Source: Komagataeibacter swingsii (GTDB lineage Bacteria; Pseudomonadota; Alphaproteobacteria; Acetobacterales; Acetobacteraceae). From it: a stretch of DNA of 39,508 nt. Positions 9,210 through 39,490 of the stretch are shown piece by piece (the first letter of the stretch is position 1; each line of letters opens with the position of its first letter). The notes under the pieces were generated by a model. That model did not search any database, was not told the DNA's origin, and saw only the letters and a list, made by a program, of their open reading frames with translations. The translations under genes and the position numbers were made by a program. The stretch lies in assembly GCF_003207895.1 (NCBI RefSeq), contig NZ_NKUB01000023.1, positions 1 through 39,508 on the forward strand, read 5' to 3'.

Positions 9210-9263
9210 TCCGCCCTGTCCGATCTGGCCCGCTGCCTATCCATGGGGCGGGTCAGGAACGGG

Positions 9264-10252: not shown

Positions 10253-10258
10253 GGTTTT

Positions 10259-13077: not shown

Positions 13078-13083
13078 CCAGCA

Positions 13084-13103: not shown

Positions 13104-13115
13104 AGGAGAGTCAAC

Positions 13116-14867: not shown

Positions 14868-14902
14868 CCCCGTTCCCATTCGCAGATACTGGAGTACCCA
14901 CC

Positions 14903-21895: not shown

Positions 21896-24211
21896 TTAAT
21901 TGAACCCGATGGACACACCTGCAAAAATGCCGAAGCCGTCGCCCGACAGCATGGCGGCAGGCTGCTGGCCGTTGGTGGTGGAATAGACCGGCACCACGCC
22001 CGTTGCGTAATGCTTGTTGGCAAGGTTGTGCAGGCTCAGGAAAACCTGCCGGTGCTTGTTGGGCCACAGGTAACCGATATCGAAATTGTAGATATGATAG
22101 GGCGCGGCCTTGTACTGGTTGTCATATGACGCCAGTACCGAGGACGAGACCTCCACATCGACCGAGGTATAGAACCCGTTCTTCATATCAAGGTGCAGTT
22201 CCCCCTGATAGAAATGGCGCGGGATACCGGGGATGTAATTGTGCCCCCATGTTGCATCATGATTGAAGCGGAAGCTCTGGAACGTATAGGCCTGGCGAAG
22301 GGAAATGATGTTGCCCTGCCATTTGTACAATGTGGAATGGAATGATGTTTCAACCCCCTGATGGGTTGTGGGCGATGCGTTGCCGTAAGTGGAATTGTTG
22401 TACAGGATGGAATTCGGCGTCGCGACCGCCAGCAGTTCGTTATGCACGGCGGAGTGATAGTAGGTGACACTCCATTCCGTGCCGGCAAAATGGCCGCTTG
22501 TGCCTACTTCAAACGTCGTGGCCGTCTGGGGGCGCAGCCTGGCCCAGTCCTTCGTCAGGCCCGTGGCGATGCCCGATGTGTAATTGGCGCCTGAAAGGTA
22601 CTGCCAGTCCTGCGGGCTTTGCACGCTACGGCTGACATTGCCGTACACTTCGATATTGGGGGTAATGACGTAACGGAATCCCGCGCGCGGCGCGAAATAC
22701 AGCGCATTCTGGCTGAACGAGCTTGTCTGCGGGTACGTCTGTGATCCCGAACGCGGGGTATAGCTTAACGCACCGGCCGCGGTCAGCCAGAAGTTGTGGA
22801 AGATCTCGGTATTGTTGCGCACATGGAAAACCGTATCACTTCCCCCCAGGTGCGAACGGGTGACAAGCGTGCCCAGCGCGTAACCGGGATAGGCCGCCTG
22901 GCGGCGCACCCGGTTTTCAATGGTGGCGTCAAGGTCATGCGAGGTATAGATGCCGATATCCGTATCACTGGCATGCCCCAGCAGCTTGTCCTGACGCGTG
23001 TAATTCACCATGCCCGTGGCGTAGTCGATGTTGTACAGCGACGAGGTATTGCCCAGTTCATGGTCCATCGGCGCGTTCAGGTAGGCAAAGCCGACAGTCA
23101 GCCTGGACTGGTCATCAATGCGGATCCTGAGCCGGTCGGCGGCATATTTGGTGCCGGGTTCAATGGTCTTGGTGCCCCATGTCGCATATTCAGGCTGCAT
23201 CTGGCGCGGATTGTCACGGATCTGGTCGCGCGTCAGGTAATAGGGGTTGCCTTCCCATGTCTGGCGATAGCGGAAGAAGAAACGGTTATCGACATTGTCG
23301 CTGAATTTGTAGCCGTAATTGAAGTTCACGCCAAAATTAGTGGTCTTGGTATTGTCCTGGTAGCCGCCGCGATAGGAATTGGTCACGCTGAGGTAATAGT
23401 CGGACTTGCCGATGACGGTGCCCGAACTCAGTTGCTCCTTCACGTACCCGAAGCTGCCCGCTTCGACACGGGCCTGGTAACGCTGTGAATTATAGCCTGT
23501 CTGCGTGACGTAATTGATCGCGCCGCCCAACTGGGTGGAGCCGAAGTCGATGCCATTCCCGCCGCGCATGATCTCGGTATAACGGATGCCCAGTGGTTCC
23601 TGCAGTTCATTGACCGTGCCGATGGGCGTGGTCAGCGGAATGTCATCAAACAGAAACATGATGCCCGCACGCGTGGCGTTCAGCCCGGTCTGGATGCCCG
23701 AACCACGGATGGAAATGCGCAGGTCGTCCGATCCGCAGGGCGCCTGTGCAAAGACACCAGCCTGGTACTTGAATGCATCCGCGTTGGTGGCGTTGCGTCC
23801 CTTCAGCACGGTGGCCGCGTCAATGACGCTGGTGCCACCGGGAATGGTTTTCAGGTACACCTCCGCCTGGTGTGTCGCCGCACTGTGATGATGCACGGCG
23901 ATATGTTCGATCGTGCTGGCATTCAGCCCGCTACTGTTCGCATGCCCATCATGCTGGCTGGCCACCCCATGCCCGCCGGTTGCATGCCGGGCGGGGGTAG
24001 GGTGGGGGATACGGTGCGTGGCGATGTCATCCGGCGTGATGGATGCGGCGGCAAGGGCGTGATGGGAGGCAACCAGAACACCAAACAGGCCGCCGGCAAG
24101 CACAAAGGTTAATCTGTTTGGTGTCTCCACCACAGGGGTTCGGCCCCTGTACTGCAGGGGATGGATATGGGGTGGGGCGGTTGGGGACAGGGATAATTCA
24201 CTTCTTAACAT
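21896..24211 (-). CDS. TonB-dependent outer-membrane receptor
   Basis: 771 residues. A signal segment (LTFVLAGGLFGVLVASHHALA) is followed by a His-rich stretch (residues about 70-115), a possible TonB box (STIEHIAVHH), the plug domain (KTIPGGTSVIDAATVLKG, RISIRGSGIQTG, RYTEIMRGGNGIDFGSTQLGG) and a 22-strand barrel ending in GIFAGVSIGFN. It takes up a large or scarce ligand across the outer membrane using TonB energy. It is clearly paralogous to the receptor at 36.2 kb, and sits downstream of sfnB on the same strand, so the ligand is probably an organosulfur compound or ester. This is inferred from context; iron-complex uptake is the alternative. Confidence 0.9.
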   Translation of the reverse strand: MLRSELSLSPTAPPHIHPLQYRGRTPVVETPNRLTFVLAGGLFGVLVASHHALAAASITPDDIATHRIPHPTPARHATGGHGVASQHDGHANSSGLNASTIEHIAVHHHSAATHQAEVYLKTIPGGTSVIDAATVLKGRNATNADAFKYQAGVFAQAPCGSDDLRISIRGSGIQTGLNATRAGIMFLFDDIPLTTPIGTVNELQEPLGIRYTEIMRGGNGIDFGSTQLGGAINYVTQTGYNSQRYQARVEAGSFGYVKEQLSSGTVIGKSDYYLSVTNSYRGGYQDNTKTTNFGVNFNYGYKFSDNVDNRFFFRYRQTWEGNPYYLTRDQIRDNPRQMQPEYATWGTKTIEPGTKYAADRLRIRIDDQSRLTVGFAYLNAPMDHELGNTSSLYNIDYATGMVNYTRQDKLLGHASDTDIGIYTSHDLDATIENRVRRQAAYPGYALGTLVTRSHLGGSDTVFHVRNNTEIFHNFWLTAAGALSYTPRSGSQTYPQTSSFSQNALYFAPRAGFRYVITPNIEVYGNVSRSVQSPQDWQYLSGANYTSGIATGLTKDWARLRPQTATTFEVGTSGHFAGTEWSVTYYHSAVHNELLAVATPNSILYNNSTYGNASPTTHQGVETSFHSTLYKWQGNIISLRQAYTFQSFRFNHDATWGHNYIPGIPRHFYQGELHLDMKNGFYTSVDVEVSSSVLASYDNQYKAAPYHIYNFDIGYLWPNKHRQVFLSLHNLANKHYATGVVPVYSTTNGQQPAAMLSGDGFGIFAGVSIGFN

Positions 24212-24607
24212 TGTAGTTTTTCCAGTATGACCGCAAGGAATGCATTAATTTGTTAGCGGGCAAAAAGGATTTTTCATACAGGGTTACAGAGGTGAAACAG
24301 GAAAAATACGTAACAGTTGTACTAAAACAACATATACACATATAATATAGTTAATTAAAGACGAATGTATGCGGACCCCAGCCCGGATACCCCAAGAAAT
24401 CCGAAATAATATCATTTTATATCAATTACATAAACAAAAACGCCCCATCAGGATGATTCCATGGTCGGCTGGCGAAATGCCCATGCCGGCACAGGGATAT
24501 GCTGCCCATGACGGTAGAAGGTTGCATATCCGACAGACCGCGTCCCCTGTCTTGCCGGGATAATTATACACTTTTAAATTGTTATTTATGGGCGCCCGCC
24601 CCATGCC
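24212..24607. promoter_or_regulatory. AT-rich leader of TonB receptor gene
   Basis: The 396-base gap between sfnB and the TonB receptor gene on the same strand holds no gene and no riboswitch I can recognise. The 24300-24360 part is strongly AT-rich and carries ATAGTTAA (24347-24354), a motif also found in the 28.1-28.5 kb divergent region, and a small GTTGT/ACAAC dyad (24316-24331). A separate promoter for the receptor is likely. Confidence 0.4.
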
Positions 24608-25858
24608 TCAGCTCCATGCATGTAACGGCGGGAAAGCATGGTTGAGGTAATAATTCCCCACAATCGCATATTTCCAGCGTACCGGATCATGCAGCGTATG
24701 CGTGCGCGCGTTACGCCACAGGTAATCAAGGTTCAGCGTCTGGTCCGTGGCAGATGTGCCAACCAGTTCGAACAGCCTGTTTGTCGCCTCGATGGCGCTT
24801 TCGGTCGTCAGGACCTTGGCCTGCGCCGTCTCGATCTGGGCGATGGCGACGCTTTGCGCAGTCGGGGCCGATACGGCATGGTCAATGGCGTCGCCTGCCC
24901 TGTCCAGCAGGGCAAGGCCCGCGTTCAGGCGTATTTTCAATGACCCGATCGCCTGGATTGTATAAGGGTCGTCCGACGCCTTTTCCTGCCCGCTGTCGAT
25001 CCATGCGCGCGCACGGGTGTGGACCAGATCGATCGTCGTATCGATGGCCGCATCGGCCAGGCCCGCGTCGATGGCCGCCTGTATGAACTGCGATATGGCG
25101 CTGTCGGCAAAGGGCGCGTCAGGCCTGTAGGCTTTCCAGACCGGGATGACACGGCCGCGCGGCACCTGCACGTCCGTCAGTTGCACGGTGCCGCTTGCCG
25201 TCCCTTTCTGGCCGAATGCCGACCAGTCATTGATGACATGCAGGCCCGGCGCATCACGCGTCGCAATGGCAAGATGGCTGTGTCCGTCATCATCAAGCGC
25301 CACAATCTGCACCAGATGCGCCGACAGCGCGCCCGTGCAGTAATGCTTGACGCCATTCAGGGTCACGGTGTCGCCTGTTACCTGGAGGCGTGTCTTCAAC
25401 GCCCCGACATGCCGGATACCGCGTTCCGAAAACGCATTGCCAAACCTGTATCCTTTCAACACCAGCGCAAACAGGTCACGTGCCTGTTCCGGACTGGCGC
25501 AAGAAGCAAGGCAGGCAATGGTGGCAAAGTGATTCTGGCTGAGTTGCGCCACCGCTGAATCCGCTTTTGCAATCAGCCGGATCACCTGCCCCACCGTGCG
25601 GTATGATACATTGGCCCCGCCATAAGCGCGTGGCACGGTCATGCCCCACAGCCCCGAATTGGAAAAGATATCCAGCTCACGCGCGGGAAAACGGTTTTCA
25701 CGGTCGCGTCGCGCCGCATCCGGGGCGATCTGCCCGGCAACGTCGGCCGCAATGCGCAATGCCTCCGCATCATCCGCGATGATGGGCACGCCCGCGGGTG
25801 GCAGGGGAAACGGGGGGACATCCGTCTCGCCCGTGCCGACAAATTCCGTAAGGGTCAT
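24608..25858 (-). CDS. sfnB: SfnB-family sulfur acquisition oxidoreductase
   Basis: 416 residues with the acyl-CoA-dehydrogenase fold. The N-terminal helical part (FSNSGLWGMTVPRAYGGANVSY), the middle beta domain (VTLNGVKHYCTGALSAHLVQIVAL, with WSAFGQKGTASGTVQLTDV) and the C-terminal helices (LDYLWRNARTHTLHDP) match the SfnB family of FMN/FAD-dependent enzymes induced by sulfur limitation and linked to sulfone and sulfonate use. The catalytic Glu of true acyl-CoA dehydrogenases is not evident, in line with a monooxygenase-type role using reduced flavin. It is the third gene of a leftward operon after ssuA-like and a related enzyme, with a 39-base gap. Confidence 0.85.
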   Translation of the reverse strand: MTLTEFVGTGETDVPPFPLPPAGVPIIADDAEALRIAADVAGQIAPDAARRDRENRFPARELDIFSNSGLWGMTVPRAYGGANVSYRTVGQVIRLIAKADSAVAQLSQNHFATIACLASCASPEQARDLFALVLKGYRFGNAFSERGIRHVGALKTRLQVTGDTVTLNGVKHYCTGALSAHLVQIVALDDDGHSHLAIATRDAPGLHVINDWSAFGQKGTASGTVQLTDVQVPRGRVIPVWKAYRPDAPFADSAISQFIQAAIDAGLADAAIDTTIDLVHTRARAWIDSGQEKASDDPYTIQAIGSLKIRLNAGLALLDRAGDAIDHAVSAPTAQSVAIAQIETAQAKVLTTESAIEATNRLFELVGTSATDQTLNLDYLWRNARTHTLHDPVRWKYAIVGNYYLNHAFPPLHAWS

Positions 25859-25897
25859 GATATGTCCAGTCTGGATGGGATCAGGGATGATCGGGAT

Positions 25898-27049
25898 TCA
25901 TGACAGCGCCTGCTGCCCCGCAACCCGGCGCAGCAATTCCCCATGAGGCGCATGGATACGGCCACACAGCGCATCGCGATGGGCACGTTCCAGCGGGTTA
26001 TGGGCGGACAGCCCGGCATTGCCCGCAAGCCCCAGCAGGGCGGCCGTAAAATCGGCCGCCGCATCGACCACGCGCGATTTTATCACCGCTGCATGCGCGT
26101 TCAGTTCGGGCAGCGGGCGCGCGGCCGTGACATCCGTGGCGTAAAGCCGCAGCAGCATGGCGTTCATGTGCAGCGTAATGGCAAAGCCCCCCACGGCGTC
26201 GCGCATGGCGGGCAGGGTTGAAAGCGGCGCGCCCAGATTGGACGGCACGCGGTTTTTCAGGAATTCACCAAACCATGCGAGTGCTGAGGTGGCGATGCCA
26301 TTATACAGGGACCCCAGCAGCCCCGTGTTCCAGAGCATGAGGATATTGCCCCCTGCCGGTGGCGCATCGGGCGCATGCAGCCCCAGCGCCGCATCCGGCG
26401 CAAGCGCAACCTGCGTGAAGGTGACTTCATGGCTGTTGCTGGCGCGCATGCCGATATGGTCCCAGTTTTCAATGACATGGATGCCATCCGCCATGGCCGG
26501 GACCATGAATGTGCCAACCCTTGCCGGGTCTTCATCCGTGCGGGCGCGCACCAGCAGCCACGACAGGCCGGGAATGCCGGTAACATAGGCCTTGCGGCCG
26601 TCCAGCACCCATCCCCCGGCCGTGCGGGACGCCACTGTGCCGGGCAGGCCACCCCGCGAGGCGGAGCCAAGGTCAGGCTCCGCCAGCAGGATATTGACCA
26701 GTTGGTCATGCTGTTCGCCTTCCATCCAGCGCGCCACATCGCCTGACCCGAATTCATGGTGGGCGATCGCGGCCCGCACCATGTAATGGTTGACCATGGC
26801 CAGCGCGGTGGAGGCATCGCCCTGCGCAATCCGGCCCACGATATCCTGCACGACGCCAAGGGTGAACGGCGTGGGCCGACCGGGCGTGGAAATGCGTAGT
26901 GACAGCAGTCCCGCCCGGCGCAGGTCGTCAATATTTTCCTGTGCGAAAATCCCGGTGCGGTCATGGTGGGCCGCACGGGCGGCAAGGCGCGCCTGCAGGT
27001 GTGTTGCCGTATCAAGGGCATCCTGTGCGGTATGAAGGTCTGCGGACAT
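25898..27049 (-). CDS. Acyl-CoA dehydrogenase-fold flavoprotein
   Basis: 383 residues with the N-terminal helical, middle beta and C-terminal helical layout of acyl-CoA dehydrogenases (GRIAQGDASTALAMVNHYM; GGWVLDGRKAYVTGIPGLSW; IGMRASNSHEVTFTQVAL). It is shorter than SfnB and only distantly like it. GGAG lies 9 bases before the ATG. It begins 4 bases after the binding-protein gene and precedes sfnB, so it is part of the sulfur operon. Such proteins in sulfur loci are often reduced-flavin monooxygenases; a true dehydrogenase activity cannot be excluded. Confidence 0.85.
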   Translation of the reverse strand: MSADLHTAQDALDTATHLQARLAARAAHHDRTGIFAQENIDDLRRAGLLSLRISTPGRPTPFTLGVVQDIVGRIAQGDASTALAMVNHYMVRAAIAHHEFGSGDVARWMEGEQHDQLVNILLAEPDLGSASRGGLPGTVASRTAGGWVLDGRKAYVTGIPGLSWLLVRARTDEDPARVGTFMVPAMADGIHVIENWDHIGMRASNSHEVTFTQVALAPDAALGLHAPDAPPAGGNILMLWNTGLLGSLYNGIATSALAWFGEFLKNRVPSNLGAPLSTLPAMRDAVGGFAITLHMNAMLLRLYATDVTAARPLPELNAHAAVIKSRVVDAAADFTAALLGLAGNAGLSAHNPLERAHRDALCGRIHAPHGELLRRVAGQQALS

Positions 27050-27053
27050 GGCT

Positions 27054-28013
27054 TCACGCTCCCCGTACGATAGCCCGGATATCCGGGACGCCCGGGATCA
27101 GGCGCGCATGGAACAGGGTGGCCGCAATCTCCTGCTGTTCGGTCACGACAGCCTGATCCAGCGGTGCGGGGCGTAGCGCCAGTTGCGCCAGCGCACGGGT
27201 GATGACGGGACGGGACAGGCCGGTACTGGCGGCAATGTCGGTGGTCAGCGTATCGGCATGATCCGCCGCCCATTGCACGCAGTCCTGCCGCGCCTGCGCC
27301 AGCAGGGTGAAGACATTGCCGGGATTACGGTCCGCGAACGGCCTGCTGGCGATCAGGAACTGCCGGTTGGTCGTCACACCCTGCGCATCCACCAGCAGGC
27401 GGGCCTGCGTATCCATCAGGGCCGCGCTCAGGTACGGGTCCCATATCGCCCATGCATCCACCTGCCCGGTCTCGAACGCGGCGCGACCGGCGGCGGGCGG
27501 CAGGTAGACGGGGTGGATGTCGGTCCATGCAATTCCCGCGCGTTGCAGCAGTGCCAGCAGCAGGTAATGCACGTTGGACCCGCGGTTCAGGGCAATGCGG
27601 CGTCCCTTCAGGTCCGCTGCGGCCTGTATGGGACTGCTGGCGGGCACCAGCACGCCCTCGCCATGCGGGGCGGGTGCCGAACAGCCGATATAGGCCAGCC
27701 CATCGGGCCATGCGGCCTGCGCCATGACCGGGGGCGCGTTCCCGGTTTCGCCAATGTCGATCGCATCCGCCGCAAGCGCCTGCAGCAGTTGGGGGCCAGC
27801 AATGAATTCGGACCACCGCACCCGTATCCCGGCGGGGGCAAGGGCGCGTTCCAGCAGCCCGCTATGTCTGAGTACCACCAGCGTGCCGTACTGCTGGTAG
27901 CCTATGCGGATCGTGGTGTCCTGTGCCGCATGCGCCCCGCGCGCCGCCCATACCGGTGACGACAGCGCCATGCCAAGACCGGCCAGGATCGTGCGACGTG
28001 AATACCGTTTCAT
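27054..28013 (-). CDS. ssuA: Aliphatic sulfonate ABC transporter substrate-binding protein
   Basis: 319 residues. A Tat signal peptide is visible (RRTILAGLGMALSSPVWA, twin Arg at residues 6-7, cleavage near AHAA). The mature chain is a type-2 periplasmic binding protein: TTIRIGYQQYGTLVVLRHSG, DAIDIGETGNAPPVMAQAA, DLKGRRIALNRGSNVHYLL and VDAWAIWDPYLSAAL are characteristic of the SsuA/TauA sulfonate and taurine binders. The ATG at 28013 is preferred over an upstream in-frame ATG at 28076 because it gives a proper signal peptide. No ATPase or permease gene accompanies it in the window. It heads the leftward operon and shares a divergent promoter region with the rightward one. Confidence 0.9.
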   Translation of the reverse strand: MKRYSRRTILAGLGMALSSPVWAARGAHAAQDTTIRIGYQQYGTLVVLRHSGLLERALAPAGIRVRWSEFIAGPQLLQALAADAIDIGETGNAPPVMAQAAWPDGLAYIGCSAPAPHGEGVLVPASSPIQAAADLKGRRIALNRGSNVHYLLLALLQRAGIAWTDIHPVYLPPAAGRAAFETGQVDAWAIWDPYLSAALMDTQARLLVDAQGVTTNRQFLIASRPFADRNPGNVFTLLAQARQDCVQWAADHADTLTTDIAASTGLSRPVITRALAQLALRPAPLDQAVVTEQQEIAATLFHARLIPGVPDIRAIVRGA

Positions 28014-28101
28014 TGCAGGCTTACCTGTAGCAGGGGTGTGGAGGCTGTTCCGTGTGGCGGTTCCATGCCGATCCATGGATCGACCGGCCGCCAGCGGTAT
28101 T

Positions 28102-28120
28102 TAACTATAAAACATAGTTA
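28102..28120. promoter_or_regulatory. Dyad in the ssuA-side promoter region
   Basis: TAACTAT and ATAGTTA are perfect inverted arms around AAAAC, with a TA-rich extension that repeats ATAGTT once more. The site is about 90 bases upstream of the ssuA-like start. A dyad with 7-base arms in AT-rich DNA is the usual form of a LysR-type operator, and sulfur genes are often controlled by such regulators (CysB, Cbl), but the regulator here is not known. Confidence 0.45.
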
Positions 28121-28467
28121 ATAATAGTTTATGACATTATAACCGTTAATTCGTATGTCAACGGGATAATTGTCGTTGGATATGGATTCCGAAGTCGTGA
28201 TCAAGCCCGGACCCTGTCCCGATTCACGGGATATGGGACAGGAAAATCATATAACGATTTAATTTGTATAATTTAACGGAAACTTTTCCAATCCTTATAA
28301 TACGATTTTAATTGTTATTTTTATGATAAAAATATCATTCATAAACAGTAACTTAATAAAATTATCTTTGTAATTTTCGATCGTTTTACGGGAAAATTTC
28401 CCCGAAACCCGTCCGGTCCCCGGATATAAAATCATACTTGATCGTTGTTATTTTATTGACTCATTAA

Positions 28468-28507
28468 TTGTCGTTGTTAGTGTGTGCAAAATATAAATGC
28501 GCACACA
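28468..28507 (+). promoter_or_regulatory. Promoter of rightward sulfur operon, with dyad over -10
   Basis: TTGTCG (28468-28473) and TATAAA (28492-28497) with an 18-base spacer form a sigma-70-like promoter 44 bases before the first ATG. A perfect dyad TGTGTGC (28481-28487) / GCACACA (28501-28507) is centred on the -10 box, where bound protein would block polymerase. ATAGTTAA follows at 28510-28517. The rest of the 28014-28540 region is AT-rich and without genes. Confidence 0.5.
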
Positions 28508-28540
28508 AAATAGTTAAAATATGCACGCGATGAGGTCGCC

Positions 28541-29809
28541 ATGACAGATCCGGTACATCCTCCCCACGGTTTCTCCCCACGGATTGATGCGCTCGCGCAA
28601 AGGCTGCGCCCGGTTTTCGCGCGTATTGCCGATGGTGCCATTGATCGTGAGGAAAACCGCATCCTGGCCCATGACGCGGTACGGTGGCTGCTGGATGCCG
28701 GTTTTGGCGCATTGCGCGTGCCGGTGCGGTATGGTGGCAGCGGGGCCAGCCTGCCGGAAGCCTTTGCGTTGCTGGCGGAACTGGCCGAAGCGGATTCAAA
28801 CCTGCCGCAGATCTTCCGCGCTCATTTCGCCTTTGTCGAAGGGCGCCTGCATGAAGGCGACAGCCCGCGCGCCGCGTACTGGCTGGAACAGGTGGCAAAG
28901 GGCGCCCTGTTCGGCGCCGCCATGGCGGAACTGACGGACAGTACCGGCACCACCACCACCCTCGCGCCCGATCCGCGGGGGCAGTGGTTGCTGGAGGGCA
29001 CGAAATACTATTCCACCGGCACGCTTTATGCGTCGTGGATTGTCGCCATCGCCACCGATGGAACGGATCGCATCCAGCTAGTGGTGCCAGCGGACGCCCC
29101 CGGCGTGACCCGTATTGATGACTGGGACGGCTTTGGCCAGCGCCTGACCGGCAGCGGGACGACGCATTTCAGGAATGTTGCCGTGCCGGATGAAAACATC
29201 ATCAACCGCACGCCGCTTTCCGAATTCCCCACCAATGAATACTTCACCACCTACTACCAGCTTTTCCACCTTGCCACGCTGGCGGGGATCGGGCGGGCCA
29301 TCGTGCGCGACGCCGTGGCCTTCGTGCGCCCGCGCACCCGGACCTTTGGCGTTCCGGGCCAGGTGGCCCAGCGGCATGACCCGCTGGTGCAGGGCGTTGT
29401 GGGACGCCTGTCCGCCCTGTCGTTTTCCGCCGATACGCTGGTGGAAAAGGTGGCATGGACGCTGGATGCGGCCTTCCCGCAATGGGCGGCGGGACACGAA
29501 AGCGGCCCGGCCTTCGATACGGCGCAACTGTGCGCCTATCAGGCGCAGCAGGTCGTGGCGGGGCAGGTGCTGGACGCCGCCACGCTGCTGTTTGAAGTGG
29601 GCGGCGCCTCCGCCACCAGCACATCACGGCGGCTGGACCGTCACTGGCGCAACGCCCGCACGCTGGCGTCGCATAACCCGCTGGTCCAGCGGCAGCGTGA
29701 ACTGGGTGACCTTGTGCTGAATGGCACGGCGTTCGGTTCGCGCTGGCGCGATCGGGCCGGCGCCACATCGCCCGTCTCCACGGGCGCACGGCAGGAACAC
29801 GCGGCATGA
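28541..29809 (+). CDS. DszC-like flavin-dependent monooxygenase (acyl-CoA dehydrogenase fold)
   Basis: 422 residues of the acyl-CoA-dehydrogenase superfamily. RVPVRYGGSGASLPEAFALLAELAE, LEGTKYYSTGTLYASWIVA, WDGFGQRLTGSGTTHFRNV and RHWRNARTLASHNP are the features of the DszC/SfnB-type branch, which uses reduced flavin and oxygen on sulfur compounds instead of dehydrogenating acyl-CoA. GAGG 5 bases upstream supports the ATG. Its stop overlaps the next start (ATGA), so it is coupled to the NtaA/DszA-type monooxygenase, a pairing that recalls the dibenzothiophene desulfurisation operon. The actual substrate is unknown. Confidence 0.88.
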   Translation: MTDPVHPPHGFSPRIDALAQRLRPVFARIADGAIDREENRILAHDAVRWLLDAGFGALRVPVRYGGSGASLPEAFALLAELAEADSNLPQIFRAHFAFVEGRLHEGDSPRAAYWLEQVAKGALFGAAMAELTDSTGTTTTLAPDPRGQWLLEGTKYYSTGTLYASWIVAIATDGTDRIQLVVPADAPGVTRIDDWDGFGQRLTGSGTTHFRNVAVPDENIINRTPLSEFPTNEYFTTYYQLFHLATLAGIGRAIVRDAVAFVRPRTRTFGVPGQVAQRHDPLVQGVVGRLSALSFSADTLVEKVAWTLDAAFPQWAAGHESGPAFDTAQLCAYQAQQVVAGQVLDAATLLFEVGGASATSTSRRLDRHWRNARTLASHNPLVQRQRELGDLVLNGTAFGSRWRDRAGATSPVSTGARQEHAA

Positions 29810-31236: not shown

Positions 31237-31238
31237 CC

Positions 31239-32402
31239 ATGTCCTACGCCGTTCCTGACAAGATCAATGTGCTGTGGTTCCTGCCCACCCATGGCGACAG
31301 CCGCTACCTTGGCACGCAGAAGGGCGGCAGGCCGGTTGACCTGCCCTACCTGCAGCAGGTGGCCAAGGCTGCTGATACGCTGGGTTATTATGGTGTCCTG
31401 ATCCCGACGGGGCGCAGTTGCGAGGATAGCTCGGTCGTTGCCTCCGCCCTTGCCCCCGTGACCGAACGGCTGCGCTACCTGATCGCGGTCCGCCCGGGCC
31501 TGCTGTCGCCAACACTTGCCGCGCGCATGACCGCGACATTGGACCGTTTTTCCAACGGGCGGCTGCTGATCAATATCGTGACCGGCGGCGACCCGGCGGA
31601 AAACGCGGGCGATGGCCTGTTTGCCGACCATGCCACCCGATACGAGATCACGGACGAATTCCTTGATATCTACCGTGCGCTGCTGCGTGGCGAGGATGTC
31701 AATTTCGAAGGCAGGCACTTTACCATAAAGGATGGCCGCCTGCTGTTCGCGCCGTACCAGAATGACGGGCCGCCGCTGTATTTTGGCGGATCGTCGGAAG
31801 CCGCCGCCCATGTCGCCGCCAAGTCGGTCGACAAGTACCTGACATGGGGCGAACCCCCGGCGCTGGTGGCGGAAAAGATCAGCCATGTGCGCAAACTGGC
31901 CCATGCGCAGGGGCGCGAGGTGTCATTTGGCATCAGGCTGCATGTCATCGTACGCGAAACGGCGGAGGAGGCCTGGCATGAAGCCGACCGCCTGATCAGC
32001 CACCTGGACGACGCCACCATCGAAAAGGCGCAGAAGGTCTTTGCCCGCATGGATTCCGTGGGCCAGTCGCGCATGAGCGCGCTGCACGGCGGCCGCCGCG
32101 ACAGGCTGGAAATCAGCCCCAACCTGTGGGCGGGCGTCGGCCTGGTGCGCGGCGGGGCGGGAACCGCGCTGGTGGGCGATGCCGATACGGTGGCGGAACG
32201 GATTGATGAATACCGCAGGCTGGGCATCGATACGTTCATTTTCTCCGGCTACCCGCACCTGGAGGAAGCCTACCAGTTCGGTGAACGCGTACTGCCCAAT
32301 CTGCCGACCACCCACCCCGTGCGCGCGGCGTCGGACCTGAACAACATGGGGCCGTTTGGCGAAACCATCGCGGGCGACCACCGCCCCACCCGCGCCGCCT
32401 GA
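31239..32402 (+). CDS. ssuD: FMNH2-dependent alkanesulfonate monooxygenase
   Basis: 387 residues, matching E. coli SsuD along its length by recollection: [35 protein letters not shown] (with the active-site Cys at residue 61, equivalent to Cys54), [42 protein letters not shown] and [19 protein letters not shown]. It converts alkanesulfonates to the aldehyde and sulfite with FMNH2 and oxygen. The C-terminus is about as long as in E. coli. It sits between the NtaA-family enzyme and a FAD-binding protein in the same operon. Confidence 0.94.
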
Positions 32403-32418
32403 CAGCAGGAGCCGTGCC

Positions 32419-33858
32419 ATGCCCGTTTCCCCCCATATTCCCCATATCGCCATTATCGGCGGCGGGTGCAGCGGCGCGGCGCTGGCGTGGCACCTTGCGC
32501 GCGATACCAGTACGCCCATACGCATGACCGTGTTCGAACCGCGTCCCTTCCTTGGCGCGGGGCTGGCCTATGGCGCAACCGACCCGCAGCACCGGGTGAA
32601 CGTGCCTGCATCGCGCATGAGCATAGACACCAGCCAGCCCGATGATTTCGCAAGCTGGATCCGGCAGACGGACGCGCTGGCCGATGACCCGGCGGCCATC
32701 AGGCCGGATGGTAGCGCCTTTCCCGCCCGCGCCGTATTTGGCCGCTATGTGGCCGACCGGCTGGCCCCGGTGCTGCATTCAGGTGTGGCGACGCACCTGC
32801 GCCGCAAGGTGGCAGGCGTGCACAGATCGCCTGATGGCGGCTGGGTCATTACGGATACCGTGGGGGACGCCACGGCTGCCGACATCGTGGTCATCGCCAC
32901 CAGCCATCCCGCGCCGCAGCCACCGGAACTGCTGCGCGACCTGCACCTGCCTGCCGGGCATCATCCTGTCCTGGTCACCAATCCATGGCGGGCCGGTGCG
33001 CTGGAAGACATAGCGCCGTCCGACCGTATCCTGGTCATTGGCACGGGACTGAGCATGGCGGATGTCGTCGTCACACTGACGGCACGCGGGCATACGGGAA
33101 AGATCACCGCCATTTCCCGGCGCGGGCAGCGTTCGCATGGCCATGCGGCGCACGCCGTTGACCCGGTGGGGCAATTCATCTCCCCGCCATCACGCACGGT
33201 GGTCCACCTGTTACGCCGCGTACGCCACGTGCTGGCGGCCCATCCAGACCAGCCATGGCAGGCCGTGTTCGACCGCCTGCGCGAACAGGCGCCCGATATC
33301 TGGGCCGCCCTGTCCCTGCCTGAACGCAGGCGGCTGATCCGGCACCTCCGCCCGTTCTGGGATACGCACCGTTTCCGTATCGCGCCACAGGCGGAAGACG
33401 TGCTGCATGCCCGCGAACGTGCCGGCACGCTGGATATCGTGGCCGGGCGGCTGACCGCCGTGCGGGTGGCGCGGGGCCGTTTTGCCACGACCATCCGCCA
33501 TGGCGCCACCTACGAACGGGATGGGACGTATGACGCCATCATCACCACGACAGGGCCGGCGCATGGCGCGATCATCCAGACCGTGCCGTACCTGCGCGAA
33601 CTGGCGGCGGCCGGCCTGGTGGAAATGGATGCGACCGGGCTGGGCCTGCATGTGGATGCGCTGGGGCGTGCCTGCGTTGGCAACCGGCACGAAGGGACCC
33701 TGTTCGTGGCGGGACCGCTGGCGCGCGGGCGGTTCGGGGAACTGATGGGCCTGCCCGAAGTCACGCGCCACGCCGAAAAGCTGGCTGTCATCATCGGCAC
33801 GCTGGCGGCGTCCCTTACCACTGTCCATGACCCTGAAAAAGAACGGGCAACGACATGA
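32419..33858 (+). CDS. FAD/NAD(P)-binding protein
   Basis: 479 residues from the ATG at 32419, preceded by AGGAG. The first Rossmann motif is IIGGGCSGAALAW (residues 12-24) and a second dinucleotide-binding segment is ILVIGTGLSMADVVV near residue 205, the two-domain layout of the NAD_binding_9/YdhS-type family. The C-terminal half carries TTTGPAHGAIIQT and a closing segment LFVAGPLARGRFGELMGLPEV. Members occur often in sulfonate and nitrogen-compound loci, but their reaction is poorly known. The gene ends in an ATGA overlap with the MFS gene. Confidence 0.85.
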   Translation: MPVSPHIPHIAIIGGGCSGAALAWHLARDTSTPIRMTVFEPRPFLGAGLAYGATDPQHRVNVPASRMSIDTSQPDDFASWIRQTDALADDPAAIRPDGSAFPARAVFGRYVADRLAPVLHSGVATHLRRKVAGVHRSPDGGWVITDTVGDATAADIVVIATSHPAPQPPELLRDLHLPAGHHPVLVTNPWRAGALEDIAPSDRILVIGTGLSMADVVVTLTARGHTGKITAISRRGQRSHGHAAHAVDPVGQFISPPSRTVVHLLRRVRHVLAAHPDQPWQAVFDRLREQAPDIWAALSLPERRRLIRHLRPFWDTHRFRIAPQAEDVLHARERAGTLDIVAGRLTAVRVARGRFATTIRHGATYERDGTYDAIITTTGPAHGAIIQTVPYLRELAAAGLVEMDATGLGLHVDALGRACVGNRHEGTLFVAGPLARGRFGELMGLPEVTRHAEKLAVIIGTLAASLTTVHDPEKERATT

Positions 33859-35354
33859 CCGCGCTGGCACGAACCATCCATGGGCGTCCCGTCGTGCGCG
33901 ACGCGGATGACATATCCGCCCTTGTAAATGCCGGCCCACGTGCTGGCAGCCATGCGCGCATGGTTGTCGCACTGGCGCTGGGGGGCGTGTTTCTTGACGC
34001 CTATGACCTGACCACCCTGTCATGGGGCATTTCGGATGTGCAGGCGCATTTCGGCCTGTCCGCGTTCCAGACCGGGCTGGTTGCCGCCGCACTGAATGCC
34101 GGGACCATCGTGGGCAGTATCGCGGGCGGGTGGCTGACGGACCGCATCGGGCGGTACGCGGTTTTCATGGCCGATATGGTGTGCTTTGTCATCGCGGCCC
34201 TGGTGGCGGGGTTCGCCCCCACGGCCGGCATCCTGATCGCGGCGCGTTTCGCCATGGGGTTCGGGGTGGGCATGGACCTGCCGGTCGCGATGGCGTTCCT
34301 GTCGGAATTCTCGCGGCTGGAGGGACGCGGCAGCAAGGCGGCCCATGCGGCGGCATGGTGCCCGACATGGTATGCGGCGTCATCCGCCTGCTTCGTGATC
34401 GTGTTCGCCCTGTCTTATGTGCTGCCTGCGGGTCATCCCGACTGGCTGTGGCGGGCGTCGCTGGCGTTTGGCGCGGTCCCGGCGTTGGTCATCATTATGG
34501 TGCGCGGGCGTTACATGAGCGAATCCCCGGTATGGATCGCCCGCCGGGGCGACCTGCAGCGTGCGGCTGACATCCTGCGCCGGTCATACGGCATTGACCC
34601 TGTCGTCCGTGCCGTTCCGGGACAGGCACCGGTGGCCATGCCGGTCGATCCGTGGCGGCTGGTACGGCGGCCGCTGCTGCGGCGCGGGCTGATGGTCGCC
34701 GCCATGACGCTGATCAGCAGCATGTCCTACAACATCATCATATTCGGCCTGCCCACGCTGCTGGTCTCGATCTTGCATGCAAACCCGGTGCAGGTGGTGG
34801 TGATTTCGATCATCCTCAACCTTGCCGTGGCCTTTCCCGGTGGCCTGCTGGGCGTACGTCTGGCCCGCAGCGTGCGCTCCCGCCCCATAATCCTTGCCGG
34901 TTACGCCATGCAGGTGGCGGGGGTCGGGACACTGGCGCTGGTTGGCGTGCCCCATGGCACAGCGGGCGTCATCGCGGCCCTTGCCGGTTTTGCCGCCTTC
35001 CTGTTCGCCCAGGGGTTCGGCCCGGGATGCCAGCTTATGGTCTATCCCACCCTGAGCTACCCCACCGAACTGCGTGGACTGGGCATCGGCATCGCACGGC
35101 TGGTATCGGGCATTGGCGGCACGCTGATCCTGCTGTCCTTCCCGTGGATGAACACCCACCTTGGTCCCGCGCTGTTCCGGGTTGCGCTGCTGGCGCCGCT
35201 GGCGGGTGTGGTGATCGCCTTTTTCTCGCGCTGGGATGTGTTCGGCTACGACCCCGACATGGACCCCGCATTGCGCCAGCAGGCCCCACCCGTGCGGCGG
35301 GAAGTGGTACTGCATGCGCCCGAACTGCTGTTTTCAACCGATACCAGGAACTGA
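33855..35354 (+). CDS. MFS transporter, probable organosulfur importer
   Basis: 499 residues with about twelve membrane segments. The sugar/organic-acid:H+ symporter pattern is clear: FLDAYDLTTLSWGISDVQ in segment 1, GSIAGGWLTDRIGRYAVF between segments 2 and 3, and ARFAMGFGVGMDLPVAMAFL in segment 4. The charged N-terminal 35 residues precede the first segment. The ATG overlaps the preceding stop codon. Its place inside the operon of sulfur monooxygenases suggests it brings their substrate through the inner membrane, a role usually held by an ABC importer. This is an inference. Confidence 0.88.
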   Translation: MTALARTIHGRPVVRDADDISALVNAGPRAGSHARMVVALALGGVFLDAYDLTTLSWGISDVQAHFGLSAFQTGLVAAALNAGTIVGSIAGGWLTDRIGRYAVFMADMVCFVIAALVAGFAPTAGILIAARFAMGFGVGMDLPVAMAFLSEFSRLEGRGSKAAHAAAWCPTWYAASSACFVIVFALSYVLPAGHPDWLWRASLAFGAVPALVIIMVRGRYMSESPVWIARRGDLQRAADILRRSYGIDPVVRAVPGQAPVAMPVDPWRLVRRPLLRRGLMVAAMTLISSMSYNIIIFGLPTLLVSILHANPVQVVVISIILNLAVAFPGGLLGVRLARSVRSRPIILAGYAMQVAGVGTLALVGVPHGTAGVIAALAGFAAFLFAQGFGPGCQLMVYPTLSYPTELRGLGIGIARLVSGIGGTLILLSFPWMNTHLGPALFRVALLAPLAGVVIAFFSRWDVFGYDPDMDPALRQQAPPVRREVVLHAPELLFSTDTRN

Positions 35355-35360
35355 TTGACC

Positions 35361-35903
35361 ATGACGACCAATGTCATCGCGCCGTTTGGCTACACCCCAC
35401 CCGATGAAGCGACGGTCAGTGCCGATACCTTCCGTAACGGCATGGCGGCGCTGTCCGGCGCGGTTACGGTCGTGACGACGGATGGGCCACACGGCCCGCA
35501 CGGATTTACGGCATCGGCGGTATGCAGTGTGTCGGACACGCCGCCGACGCTGCTGGTGTGCATAAACCGCACTACAAGCGCGCACCCGCATATACTGGAA
35601 CATGGTGTCCTGGCCATCAATGTCCTGCATGAAGGCCAGCACGGCCTGTCGAACATCTTCAGCAGCCGGTCGCGGTCCATGGCGGAGCGTTTCGCGGCTG
35701 GCAAATGGCATGCGGGCCTGACCGGTGCGCCGGTTCTGGATGATGCGCTGGTCAGCTTTGACTGCCGTATCCGTGAAATCCGTGATGTGGGAACGCATAC
35801 GGTCGTCATTGCGCATGTGGTTGGTGTAACCGTTGGTCATGATGATATCCGGCCTGCCCTTGTCTGGTTCAACCGGCAGTACGGCCGCATTATTCCCAAA
35901 TAA
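35361..35903 (+). CDS. Flavin reductase-like protein (FMN reductase)
   Basis: 180 residues of the flavin-reductase-like, FMN-binding split-barrel family (HpaC/DszD type). VSADTFRNGMAALSGAVTVVTT, FTASAVCSVSDTPPTLLVCIN and ALVSFDCRIREIRDVGTHTVVIAHV are typical. It would use NAD(P)H to make FMNH2 for the three monooxygenases upstream. The ATG at 35361 is used; a TTG two codons before is possible. Seven bases separate it from the MFS gene. It is the last gene of this tightly packed group. Confidence 0.9.
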   Translation: MTTNVIAPFGYTPPDEATVSADTFRNGMAALSGAVTVVTTDGPHGPHGFTASAVCSVSDTPPTLLVCINRTTSAHPHILEHGVLAINVLHEGQHGLSNIFSSRSRSMAERFAAGKWHAGLTGAPVLDDALVSFDCRIREIRDVGTHTVVIAHVVGVTVGHDDIRPALVWFNRQYGRIIPK

Positions 35904-35917
35904 AAATAAAAGGCATC

Positions 35918-35933
35918 AGAGACTGTTTGAAAA
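35918..35933. other. Insertion-sequence-end-like sequence beside a repeat
   Basis: AGAGACTGTTTGAAAA is identical to 21016-21031. Both lie next to copies of the dispersed repeat. No transposase gene is associated with either, so if it is an insertion-sequence end it is a solo remnant. Confidence 0.4.
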
Positions 35934-35950
35934 CTACCCATTGATAAAAA

Positions 35951-36032
35951 ACAATAAAAGTTTTTGGGTGCTGCCTTTTTTCAAAAAGGCGGCGTTCTTT
36001 CGAAGCTTTTGCAAAAAGCTTCACCAATAAAC
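35951..36032. repeat. Dispersed intergenic hairpin repeat, copy E (inverted)
   Basis: The reverse complement of this stretch nearly equals copy D at 21059-21170, including the same GGCAGC variant at one hairpin foot. Hairpins lie at 35973-35990 (GCCTTTTTTCAAAAAGGC) and 36002-36022. It follows the flavin reductase stop and precedes the second TonB receptor gene, and could act as a partial terminator between them. Confidence 0.75.
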
Positions 36033-36165
36033 TTCCTTACGATTTTCGGGATGTTTCATGGACAATGCTTCCAGGCAGGCTACAGGTATTTTTCGTTCAG
36101 GAAACAGTAAAATGTGTACACGATAAGAACTGATGAAATGAATAAAAAACATTCACACAATAATC

Positions 36166-38472
36166 ATGCGTATTCATGCATCCATGGAATCATTCCCAAT
36201 GACGCGGATATCCGTACGCCCCCCACCTGACAGATTTTTTTCCCGCTCCCGCCTGCTGTCGCGCCGGACGACCGTCGTGGTCGGTTCCTACCTGCTGGGT
36301 TTCGCGCCCGGCGCGTTCGCGGCGGACACCGTGGCCTCGCCCCCCGTGCGACATAGCCCCGAAACACAGCATGTCCGGCCCACGCGACCCAAGGGGTCAA
36401 CGGTATCGCCAGATCATGCCGTCCCTTCGCCTACACGGCCAGAGGTCATTTCCGTCTCGCGCCATCGCCTGTCGCCCGCTTCCCGCGCGGAGGCGCGCCT
36501 GGCATCCATTCCCGGCGCGACCAGCGTGATCGACGCGCAGAAAGTGCTGAAGGGCCGCAACTTCACCAATGCGGATGCCCTGTCATTCCAGCCGGGCGTG
36601 TTCGCGCAGTCCTCGGGCGGGGGAGATGGCATACGGCTGTCGATCCGTGGGTCGGGTATCGCCACCGGCACCAATTACTTTCGCTCCGGCCTGCTCATGA
36701 TGTTTGACGGCCTGCCGGTCACGACGCCGGCCGGCACGCCCTATGAACTGTTTGAACCGCTGGGCCTGCGTTATACCGAGGTACTACGCGGGGCGAACGC
36801 GTTCGATTACGGCGGCATGCAACTGGGCGGCGCGCTGAATTACGTGTCCATGACCGGATATGACGCGCAGCGGTACCAGGCCCGTGTCGAAGCCGGCAGT
36901 TTTGGCTACGTCAAGGAACAGCTCAGCTCCGGCGGGGTATTTGGTAAATTCGATTACTATATCAGCGCGACCAATTCCTATCGTGGTGGCTATCAGGACA
37001 ATACCAAGGCGACCAGCTTCGGGCTGAACACCAATTTTGGCTACCGTTTCAATGACCGTGTTTCAACACGGGCCTTCTTCCGGTACCGGCAGACGGTTAA
37101 CGGCTATCCTGGCTACCTGACGCGTGACCAGATCCTGTCCGATCCCAGGCAGGCGCAGTCGCCGTATTATGCATGGGGCGCGCACCGTATCCAGCCGGGC
37201 ACGAAGTATTACGGGTCCATGACCACCATCAGGATTGATGACAAATCAAAGATCGAGGTCGGCGGCAATTATCAGGATGCGCCGATTGATATCCAGAACA
37301 CCGCGTCATCCCAGATCTGGGGCTACAAGACGATTGCGGGCGTGCTGAATTACGACCGGCATGATGTGCTGGCAGGCCACAGGAGCGACACGCAGTTCGG
37401 TATCCTGAGCTATACCGATATCGAGGCCTGGCAGCGCAACCGCATCCGTGTCAGCAGTGTATTTGGTGGCGTGCCGGATGGAACGCTGCTGCGTAATGTA
37501 GAATATGGCGGCACGGAAAACTACTTCCACCTGCGCAACAACACCGAGGTCGCGCATAACCTGTGGCTGACGGCGGCCGGGGCCGTGGCCTTCATCAAGC
37601 GCATGTCGGATGTGACCTATCCCAACCGCAGCGACCTGCACACCACTTCGGTCAATTTCATTCCACGTGGCGGCTTCCGTTACAAACCGGACAGCCATGT
37701 GGAAATATATGGCAATGTCAGCCGCAGCCTGCAGCCGCCTAATGACTGGAACTACAACTATGCCGGTAATTACTATAACGCGGCCAGTTACCCGTTACAG
37801 CATGCCGCGGGCGAGAATTCCACATCCGGCCGCCTGCGCAACCAGACCGCAACCACGTTCGAAATCGGAACCACGGGTCATTATTTCCATAATAAATGGA
37901 GCCTGAGTTACTATCATTCCTCGGTGCATAACGAACTGCTGACGGTGACGACACCGGCATCGCTCGCGGCGGGCACGTCGATTTACGGCAATGCCTCGCC
38001 CACCATGCATCAGGGTGTCGAGGTTTCACTGGAAACGGAACTGCTGAAATGGGCGGGCAATACGCTGTCATTGCGGCAGGCCTATACATATCAGGATTTC
38101 CGTTACAGGCATGATGCCGTTTTTGGCAATAATCACCTGCCCGGAATCCCCGAACATTTCTATCAGGGGGAAGTCCATCTGGATATGCGCAACGGGTTTT
38201 ACGCCAGTTTCAACGCGCAGGTGTCGTCCAGGGTGGGCGCATCCTATGACATGACGTATTTCGCGCCTTCGTACCACATCTATAACGCCAATATCGGTTA
38301 TTCCTGGCCACACAAGCATCGTGAAGTCTTCATAAGCTTCAACAACCTGGCCAATACGCATTACGCGGCCATTGTCGTGCCCGGTTACAAGGCCGCTGGC
38401 AAGCAACTGTCGGTCATGCAGCCGGGTGACGGGTTTGGCGTGTTTGTTGGCGCGTCGATCGGGTTTGACTGA
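36166..38472 (+). CDS. TonB-dependent outer-membrane receptor (paralogue)
   Basis: 768 residues if the first ATG is used; ATG at 36199 (with GGAA upstream) is equally possible. A basic start leads to a signal (TTVVVGSYLLGFAPGAFA), a His/Pro-rich linker, a TonB-box-like PEVISVSRHR, the plug (SIPGATSVIDAQKVLKGRNF, RLSIRGSGIATGTNYF, LRYTEVLRGANAFDYGG) and a barrel ending in GVFVGASIGFD. Long stretches are identical to the 21.9-24.2 kb receptor (for example RYQARVEAGSFGYVKEQLSS), so the two are recent paralogues. It is followed after 31 bases by an NtaA/DszA-type gene, which ties it to the sulfur locus. Its ligand is unknown. Confidence 0.9.
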   Translation: MRIHASMESFPMTRISVRPPPDRFFSRSRLLSRRTTVVVGSYLLGFAPGAFAADTVASPPVRHSPETQHVRPTRPKGSTVSPDHAVPSPTRPEVISVSRHRLSPASRAEARLASIPGATSVIDAQKVLKGRNFTNADALSFQPGVFAQSSGGGDGIRLSIRGSGIATGTNYFRSGLLMMFDGLPVTTPAGTPYELFEPLGLRYTEVLRGANAFDYGGMQLGGALNYVSMTGYDAQRYQARVEAGSFGYVKEQLSSGGVFGKFDYYISATNSYRGGYQDNTKATSFGLNTNFGYRFNDRVSTRAFFRYRQTVNGYPGYLTRDQILSDPRQAQSPYYAWGAHRIQPGTKYYGSMTTIRIDDKSKIEVGGNYQDAPIDIQNTASSQIWGYKTIAGVLNYDRHDVLAGHRSDTQFGILSYTDIEAWQRNRIRVSSVFGGVPDGTLLRNVEYGGTENYFHLRNNTEVAHNLWLTAAGAVAFIKRMSDVTYPNRSDLHTTSVNFIPRGGFRYKPDSHVEIYGNVSRSLQPPNDWNYNYAGNYYNAASYPLQHAAGENSTSGRLRNQTATTFEIGTTGHYFHNKWSLSYYHSSVHNELLTVTTPASLAAGTSIYGNASPTMHQGVEVSLETELLKWAGNTLSLRQAYTYQDFRYRHDAVFGNNHLPGIPEHFYQGEVHLDMRNGFYASFNAQVSSRVGASYDMTYFAPSYHIYNANIGYSWPHKHREVFISFNNLANTHYAAIVVPGYKAAGKQLSVMQPGDGFGVFVGASIGFD

Positions 38473-38503
38473 ATACAGTACAGTTCTGAACGGATATGCC
38501 CAG

Positions 38504-39490
38504 ATGAAAGAAATTCGCCTCAACGCGTTTGACATGAACTGCGTGTCCCATCAGGCCAGCGGCCTGTGGCGGCACCCGCGTGACCGCTCGGACCAGTACC
38601 ATACCCTGCAATACTGGACAGATCTGGCCCGCACGCTGGAACGCGGCCTGTTTGACGCCCTGTTCCTGGCGGATGTGCTGGGTATTTATGATGTGTATGG
38701 CGCATCCCCCGATGCGGCGCTGCGCAATGCGGCACAGGTGCCGGTCAATGATCCCGCCATGCTGGTATCAGCCATGGCGTCTGTCACGCGCAATCTTGGC
38801 TTTGGGCTTACGGCGACCCTGTCTTACGAACACCCGTTTCCCTTTGCGCGGCGCATGTCCACGCTGGATCACCTGACACAGGGACGCATCGGGTGGAATA
38901 TCGTCACGGGTTATCTGGACAGCGCGGCAAAAAGCACGGGAAAGGCGCAGCAGTCATCCCATGATGCGCGCTATGACATAGCGGATGAATACATGCGGGT
39001 CGTCTATGATCTGTGGGAAGGCAGTTGGGAGGATGACGCCGTACGGCGCGACCGTGCCAGCGGGGTGTTTACCGACCCATCGAAGGTTCACCGTATCCGC
39101 CATGACGGGAAATACTTCACGGTGGATGCCATTCACCTGTCCGAACCTTCGCCCCAGCGCACGCCGGTGCTGTTTCAGGCCGGTGCGTCCCGCCGGGGAC
39201 AGCAATTTGCGGGCACGCATGCCGAATGTGTTTTTATTGCCGGACCATCGAAGGAAATCGTCCGCAAAACGGTTGCCAGCATACGGGGGCAGGCCCTGAT
39301 TCAGGGGCGCCGCAGCGATGAACCGCTGATTTTCTCCCTGCTGACCATCGTGACGGCGCCAACACATGAAGAAGCATGGGCAAAGTATGAGGATTACAAG
39401 CAGTATATAATACCAACCATTGTTTGGCCTGACTCACGGGGTACCCATCGGTTTAAAAATGTGATTCATAGGATGCAGACCATTCTCTGA
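38504..39490 (+). pseudogene. Truncated NtaA/DszA-family FMN-dependent monooxygenase
   Basis: The frame encodes 328 residues where the family has about 440-480. Residues 1-301 are good family sequence ([81 protein letters not shown]), close to the enzyme at 29.8 kb. After Tyr301 (position 39406) the match stops and 27 unrelated residues lead to a stop codon. The missing part includes the C-terminal barrel strands, so activity is doubtful. A sudden end of this sort suggests insertion of a mobile element. The start at 38504 has only a weak ribosome-binding site; it lies just after the TonB receptor stop and is probably co-transcribed. Confidence 0.7.

Follow-up and report, generated by a model that had tools for sequence, protein, structure and literature searches.

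A putative organosulfur-scavenging locus with two TonB-dependent receptors in Komagataeibacter swingsii and other acetic acid bacteria

Known organosulfur systems and the Komagataeibacter locus

TonB-dependent receptors are mostly regarded as importers of metal chelates. The locus described here, from Komagataeibacter swingsii, combines two of them with flavin-dependent oxygenases of organosulfur families; it occupies positions 21896–39490 of the window, which is the whole contig NZ_NKUB01000023.1 (39,508 nucleotides; contig C29 of genome G000, where G, C and L numbers denote genomes, contigs and loci). The nearest named copies in a receptor scan of genome contigs belong to K. diospyri, K. europaeus and Komagataeibacter sp. 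FXV3. Judged by its gene families and their linkage, the locus probably serves sulfur scavenging, in which receptor-driven uptake of an organosulfur ligand would be followed by flavin-dependent oxidation to sulfite.

A TonB-dependent receptor in an organosulfur cluster has a precedent in SftP. The ats-sft cluster of Pseudomonas (atsACBR-sftR-atsK-sftP), which enables the use of sulfate esters, holds a TonB-dependent receptor, organosulfur enzymes and sulfonate-type ATP-binding cassette (ABC) components together (PMC3596284); by gene content the window is alike in joining organosulfur enzymes and a TonB receptor in one cluster. The ats-sft cluster acts on sulfate esters through sulfatases, whereas the window encodes C-S flavin monooxygenases with a major facilitator superfamily (MFS) importer, or in relatives a nickel/peptide-type importer. 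According to PMC13352529, group D oxygenases of Acinetobacter baylyi turn dimethyl sulfide into sulfoxide and sulfone, and SfnG-, MsuC- and SsuD-type steps then lead to sulfite, one flavin reductase feeding all. This msu/sfn route, known from Pseudomonas and A. baylyi, has SfnB, an MsuC-like protein (ACAD3 in the window), SsuD and a flavin reductase in common with the window and follows a like logic from sulfide through sulfone, sulfinate and sulfonate to sulfite; unlike it, the window has no SfnG above the cut-off (best window protein 163 against 383 bits), contains two DmoA/LadA-type enzymes instead and carries receptors and importer in the locus itself. The ssu locus (ssuEADCB) shares SsuD and SsuA with the window; however, SsuBC is missing from the Komagataeibacter locus, no SsuE-type reductase was found by family scans of its proteins, and further oxygenases, an MFS importer and receptors are added. 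No description of such a locus in acetic acid bacteria was found in the open-access PMC literature, and the conserved unit with its exchangeable importer looks new.

All named genes are open frames with family support from profile scans, and the gene content listed by the earlier note holds: SsuD, SfnB, SsuA and the oxygenases NtaA1 and NtaA2 score above their cut-offs, and the acyl-CoA-dehydrogenase-fold (ACAD) proteins, MFS importer, flavoprotein (FADbp), reductase and receptors are recognized through Pfam. The right part, on the plus strand, consists of ACAD3, NtaA1, SsuD, FADbp, MFS and flavin reductase followed by receptor 2 and NtaA2; the left part, on the minus strand, consists of SsuA, ACAD2 and SfnB followed by receptor 1 (Table 1).

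Conservation of the gene set and exchange of its importer

Among the best 80 of 139 loci from a scan of genome contigs with both receptors, 38 belong to Acetobacteraceae, coming from 30 genomes of seven genera (Komagataeibacter, Novacetimonas, Acetobacter, Gluconacetobacter, Tanticharoenia, Asaia and Gluconobacter). Of these, 35/38 have two or more of the ten non-receptor genes within 10 kb, the three exceptions being L059, on a 3.7-kb contig, with one such gene, and L067 and L069 with none; SsuD is carried by 29/38. The gene order differs between genera, which favours selection keeping the set together. The other 42 loci, mostly from Pseudomonas, have organosulfur neighbours in two cases (Herminiimonas, L093; bacterium GS10, L095), and the contrast of 35/38 with 2/42 corresponds to a Fisher P of about 1e-16, a descriptive value only, as the loci are not independent by descent, eight genomes are represented twice (in part by overlapping loci) and the 80 are the best of 139. 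The comparison of neighbourhoods across Acetobacteraceae had been proposed in the earlier note as a check, and its outcome bears out the conserved linkage.

Within the genus, SsuD is found at 92-100% identity in 7/19 genomes including that of the window, and each of the six others has the block ACAD3-NtaA1-SsuD-FADbp-MFS-flavin reductase-receptor 2, ACAD3 being incomplete in one copy, where an 11-kb contig cuts it. The left half is variable. G009 and G010 both have SsuA, ACAD2 and receptor 1, with SfnB whole in G010 and only in fragments in G009; G008 has ACAD2 alone, and the sequence fetched from G013 and G017 contains none of the four left-half genes (SsuA, ACAD2, SfnB, receptor 1). Komagataeibacter sp. 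FXV3 (L039, ~6660-6900; L081) has only fragments of SfnB, with the right half complete; SfnB may be dispensable. A 217-kb plasmid of K. saccharivorans from vinegar (NZ_CP023037.1, L271) carries the bare unit ACAD3-NtaA1-SsuD-FADbp-MFS-reductase-receptor 2, and the receptor is also present on a second K. saccharivorans plasmid, from a fruit fly source (NZ_CP036405.1). The functional unity first proposed from gene order and strand gains from this bare seven-gene unit and from the co-occurrence of the genes in differing order in seven genera.

The importer is the component that is exchanged. The MFS protein stands beside receptor and enzymes in 16/38 Acetobacteraceae loci (15 genomes), and a four-gene ABC importer of the nickel/peptide/glutathione type takes its place in another 16 (13 genomes); none of the 38 has both, and six have neither in reach. 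The two loci outside the family with organosulfur genes have the ABC type. The receptor-2 tree requires at least two changes of importer state and the SsuD tree three, which points to few independent exchanges. The exchange suggests two ways of importing one ligand, which would be larger than a simple alkanesulfonate; to our knowledge, a nickel/peptide-type importer is not usual for small sulfonates. The proposal of a ligand too large or too scarce for porins thereby receives indirect support on the side of size. For the importer of Acetobacter senegalensis (L060), the models that rank first for binding protein and permeases are those of nickel, oligopeptide and related importers, all under cut-off and with glutathione importers ranking lower; its ATPase is above the cut-offs of NikD, NikE and the staphylopine proteins CntD and CntF, and the cargo of the ABC type may be a metal chelate. 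No close relative of the ABC binding protein occurs in the K. swingsii genome (best 26% identity).

SsuA, the sole match of the genome to its family above the cut-off, has an export-signal-like N-terminus as read by eye; no ABC ATPase or permease accompanies it among the window proteins scanned. An SsuB/SsuC-like pair is encoded on contig C36 of the same genome (72% and 69% identity to the corresponding Acetobacter genes), and the 20 kb fetched around it hold no SsuA. Receptor 1 stands near SsuA and two SsuB/SsuC-like genes in four loci of Acetobacter (L077-L080); those of A. tropicalis have SsuB and SsuC as their best models, below the cut-offs (259.8 against 395 bits for SsuB, 250.5 against 347 for SsuC). 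SsuA and the C36 pair are likely to form a split sulfonate importer.

Enzymes, receptors and layout of the locus

SsuD and SfnB exceed the cut-offs of their curated equivalog models, and NtaA1 and NtaA2 exceed the subfamily cut-off of the NtaA/DmoA family (Table 1). Group D oxygenases have the ACAD fold in common, and of the three ACAD-fold proteins of the window, SfnB passes its own model; ACAD3 is below that cut-off (247.1 against 430.9 bits, TIGR04022), and ACAD2 reaches no cut-off in the NCBIfam profile scan. The best solved relative of ACAD3 is the methanesulfinate monooxygenase MsuC (128 bits), with the best DszC at 105. The dszABC genes of the 4S pathway also combine ACAD-fold and NtaA-family oxygenases; however, the DszC equivalog is reached by none of the three (197.4, 112.2 and 50.1 against 850 bits, ACAD3 scoring 112), and among solved structures NtaA1 is nearer to LadA (452 bits) and dimethyl-sulfide monooxygenase (377) than to DszA (236), as the NtaA2 piece is nearer to dimethyl-sulfide monooxygenase (399) than to DszA (196). 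SfnB and the NtaA family were correctly recognized in the earlier note, the labels DszC-like and DszA-type are loose, and a Dsz or thiophene pathway is rejected on the failed DszC cut-off. The flavin reductase has RutF as its best NCBIfam model, under the cut-off (198.8 against 254.75 bits).

FADbp follows SsuD in 21 of the 29 Acetobacteraceae SsuD loci (two of the 21 being second copies of one genome), the next gene in the remainder being the flavin reductase in seven and an unassigned frame in one; it also adjoins SsuD in six of the stretches fetched from non-Acetobacteraceae genomes (L245, L251, L256, L260, L261 and L270). A structure model of the protein from 32416 (pLDDT 83) resembles amino-acid N-hydroxylases over ~380-440 residues and, at equal Z, flavin monooxygenases and thioredoxin-reductase-like proteins over ~300-345 residues; from this fold, which is no proof by itself, we propose that FADbp may be an NAD(P)H-dependent monooxygenase. 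Its reading frame may in fact begin with the ATG at 32419.

Both receptors contain plug (PF07715) and barrel (PF00593) domains and are 53% identical to each other. PqqU (YncD) is the closest solved TonB receptor, with 83 bits for receptor 2, yet its curated equivalog is far from reached (94.0 bits for receptor 1 and 99.7 for receptor 2 against the 1200 needed); a structure model of receptor 2 had a mean pLDDT of 24.8 and was not used. The receptor tree, which like the SsuD tree is a quick search with many weak forks, has two sister clades of Acetobacteraceae only, with 11 rows (receptor 1, labelled TBDR1) and 28 rows; a distant Acetobacter receptor (L077, second copy) groups with Herminiimonas outside both. 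Agreement between the trees of receptor 2 and SsuD is partial: in A. fallax, receptor 2 (L067) falls on the Asaia-Gluconobacter side and SsuD (L089) on the other. In Acetobacter pomorum LHT 2458 (L057) receptor and SsuD both group with Komagataeibacter, apart from other Acetobacter, which suggests a transfer between the two genera. In loci L090-L132 except L110, mostly Pseudomonas, the receptor is ~42% identical and mostly at a conserved place; its neighbours there look like the nuo operon by the sizes and order of open frames only. The K. swingsii genome encodes 31 TonB plug domains; another receptor, on contig C41 (~8838-11571), lies 2.4 kb from a weak SsuA-family match (47 against 163.5 bits) and possibly serves a further small nutrient.

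NtaA2 was taken in the earlier note for a truncated gene; the family stands, and the gene is interrupted. Its likeness to the orthologue, which has 461 aa in locus L041, breaks off at 39409/39410 in the alignment. The final 99 bases of the contig recur without change at the ends of contigs C21 and C64 and match five Komagataeibacter plasmids, four of which have an IS630 family transposase annotated there. An IS630-type insertion element has interrupted NtaA2, and the assembly is broken at the same point. IS630 elements have TA as their target.

By layout, the genes from ACAD3 to flavin reductase form one operon, as neighbours overlap or are separated by gaps of at most 16 bases; 262 bases separate the flavin reductase gene from that of receptor 2, and 396 separate SfnB from receptor 1. 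No regulator gene was recognized inside the locus by family scans of the window proteins.

Table 1. Features of the locus, with positions in the window
Feature	Positions	Strand	Evidence
TonB-dependent receptor 1, 771 aa	21896..24211	-	PF00593 and PF07715 above cut-off
SfnB, 416 aa	24608..25858	-	TIGR04022, 541.1 bits (cut-off 430.9)
ACAD2, divergent acyl-CoA-dehydrogenase-fold protein, 383 aa	25898..27049	-	PF02770/PF08028
SsuA-type sulfonate-binding protein, 340 aa	27054..28076	-	TIGR01728, 209.8 bits (cut-off 163.5)
Promoter-like element upstream of ACAD3	28455..28483	+	ATTGACTC-N10-GTTGTTARTGT, pattern from alignment
ACAD3, MsuC/SfnB/DszC-like flavoprotein, 422 aa	28541..29809	+	best solved relative MsuC (6u76)
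NtaA1, NtaA/DmoA-family FMN monooxygenase, 476 aa	29806..31236	+	TIGR03860, 483 bits (cut-off 279.7)
SsuD, alkanesulfonate monooxygenase, 387 aa	31239..32402	+	TIGR03565, 608.5 bits (cut-off 518.2)
FADbp, two-dinucleotide-domain flavoprotein beside SsuD	32356..33858	+	PF13454
MFS importer, 499 aa	33855..35354	+	PF00083/PF07690
Flavin reductase, 182 aa	35355..35903	+	PF01613
TonB-dependent receptor 2, 768 aa	36166..38472	+	PF00593 and PF07715 above cut-off
NtaA2, interrupted; orthologous coding until 39409	38504..39490	+	TIGR03860, 410.1 bits (cut-off 279.7)
IS630-type insertion element end, contig stops	39410..39508	+	99 bp common to other contig ends and plasmids

The promoter-like pattern upstream of ACAD3 occurs exactly in 16 of 289 loci, all of them Komagataeibacter copies of the region and with a single occurrence in the window; the pattern was drawn from six of the matched copies, so its conservation there is by construction, and the A. 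pomorum copy (L057) has no exact match. Upstream of receptor 2, the palindrome ATGTGTACACG (36112-36122) is seen in 6/7 aligned orthologous regions; it was rejected as a site, a match with at most one mismatch arising in 56 of 100 window shuffles. Promoter and terminator scans did no better than shuffles (8 against 7.7 and 13 against 14.6, respectively), no motif common to the three upstream regions was found by eye, the only way in which it was sought, and no RNA family reached its gathering score within the window. Between flavin reductase and receptor 2 (35960-36030) lies a short hairpin-like sequence, also present in L038-L040 and absent from the shorter gaps of L041-L043; it is perhaps a dispersed repeat. 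Elsewhere in the window a phage-type integrase gene is located near the left end (1417-2628), and positions 11518-17762 hold an OprB porin gene followed by D-lactate dehydrogenase and CCG- and LUD-domain genes, a LutABC-type lactate operon.

Proposed pathway, competing explanations and meaning

Candidates for every kind of step are present in the window, and a sulfide-to-sulfite chain can be drawn from their families. We infer the following course, including its TonB coupling, the order of its reactions and a regulation by sulfur. Receptor 2, together with receptor 1 in part of the strains, would use TonB energy to bring an organosulfur ligand that is scarce across the outer membrane, and the MFS porter, or in other genera the nickel/peptide/glutathione-type ABC importer, would carry it into the cytosol; SsuA probably belongs to a second, sulfonate-type route with the SsuBC pair encoded elsewhere. 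The flavin reductase would supply FMNH2. Sulfide, sulfoxide or sulfinate groups would be oxidized by the ACAD-fold oxygenases, a C-S bond would be broken by the NtaA/DmoA enzymes and SsuD would free sulfite from the resulting sulfonate; FADbp, as a putative NAD(P)H-dependent monooxygenase, may act on the same substrate or on an aldehyde product. This sulfur-scavenging reading is favoured because SsuD, SfnB, SsuA and the NtaA/DmoA proteins pass curated cut-offs, and because the linkage of the receptor is kept in spite of rearrangement.

Several observations weigh against this reading. The locus is patchy in its own genus (7/19 genomes), and receptor relatives outside the family, at ~40% identity, mostly lack organosulfur neighbours. 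In a phylum sample of 398 genomes, nine besides K. swingsii have a receptor relative at E <=1e-90, and among the six surroundings fetched only that in G444 has organosulfur neighbours (ACAD3 at 55%, SfnB at 43%); with one in six, sulfur genes do not generally accompany the wider receptor relatives. A near-identical enzyme set, SsuD-FADbp-NtaA-MFS-ACAD3, is found in G328 (L245) with no receptor in the 20 kb fetched. The ABC importer may carry a cargo of another class, as its ATPase passes nickel and staphylopine cut-offs; the closest solved receptor is a pyrroloquinoline quinone transporter, and NtaA1 is nearest to LadA. In A. baylyi the loss of MsuC caused no significant defect, according to PMC13352529, so that an MsuC-like step may be dispensable.

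The receptor-less set of G328, and a smaller one in G525 (L270; SsuD-FADbp-NtaA with MFS, no receptor in reach, the ACAD3 relative lying elsewhere, at L254, next to an ABC importer of the nickel/peptide/glutathione type), indicate that the enzymes do not need a receptor. They fit an ordinary Ssu/Sfn-type locus, in which small alkanesulfonates and methyl sulfides would enter through porins and the receptors would act as an affinity booster or import an occasional larger ligand; SsuD and SfnB are indeed typical members of their families. This explanation is considered unlikely, as seven genera retain a receptor of this clade in loci that differ in gene order and the nickel/peptide-type importer would be unusual for small sulfonates.

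A lower probability still is given to the receptors being mere neighbours of a sulfur locus that import an iron or nickel chelate, a quinone or a cobalamin-like ligand. PqqU as the best solved relative, the Pseudomonas receptors outside any such cluster and the NikD, NikE and staphylopine scores of the exchanged ATPase agree with it; the linkage in 35/38 loci despite rearrangement speaks against it, as does the position of receptor 2 directly after the flavin reductase gene in K. saccharivorans. In the K. swingsii genome, of the 31 TonB plug domains only the two of this locus were found within 10 kb of the detected SsuD, NtaA, SfnB-family or above-cut-off SsuA genes. The control covers NtaA-family genes to the extent that a search with SsuD detects them, and no separate search was made for these, TauD or sulfatases, which is a point against the sulfur-scavenging reading; within these bounds the receptors belong to the locus, as first claimed. 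A chance neighbourhood was rejected, the probability that 17.6 kb would contain two or more of 31 receptors at random being 0.009, and its conservation in several genera is the stronger argument. It is very improbable that the locus is a carbon-catabolic or detoxifying one (LadA-like alkane or aldehyde oxidation): NtaA1 is nearest to LadA, and neither ACAD2 nor FADbp is assigned to a sulfur-specific family, but SsuD, SfnB and SsuA lie above curated cut-offs in the same block.

A more specific form of the sulfur-scavenging reading is put forward tentatively, namely that acetic acid bacteria possess a receptor-to-sulfite assembly line for a bulky organosulfur compound, possibly conjugated to peptides or amino acids, built from a TonB receptor clade, an interchangeable importer and three kinds of flavin oxygenase. 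A peptide-like cargo is made less sure by the nickel and staphylopine scores of the ABC ATPase. It is equally tentative that the oxygenases of the line would include the uncharacterised NAD(P)H flavoprotein encoded beside SsuD. If the assembly line is real, this receptor clade would gain its first known ligand, and the exchange of MFS for ABC importer is a concrete clue to that ligand. The locus may spread as a trait of sulfur niches, as it lies on K. saccharivorans plasmids and is apparently shared with one Acetobacter; a receptor clade tied to organosulfur oxygenases, throughout a family used to make vinegar and bacterial cellulose, would give TonB receptors one more class of substrate that can be tested.

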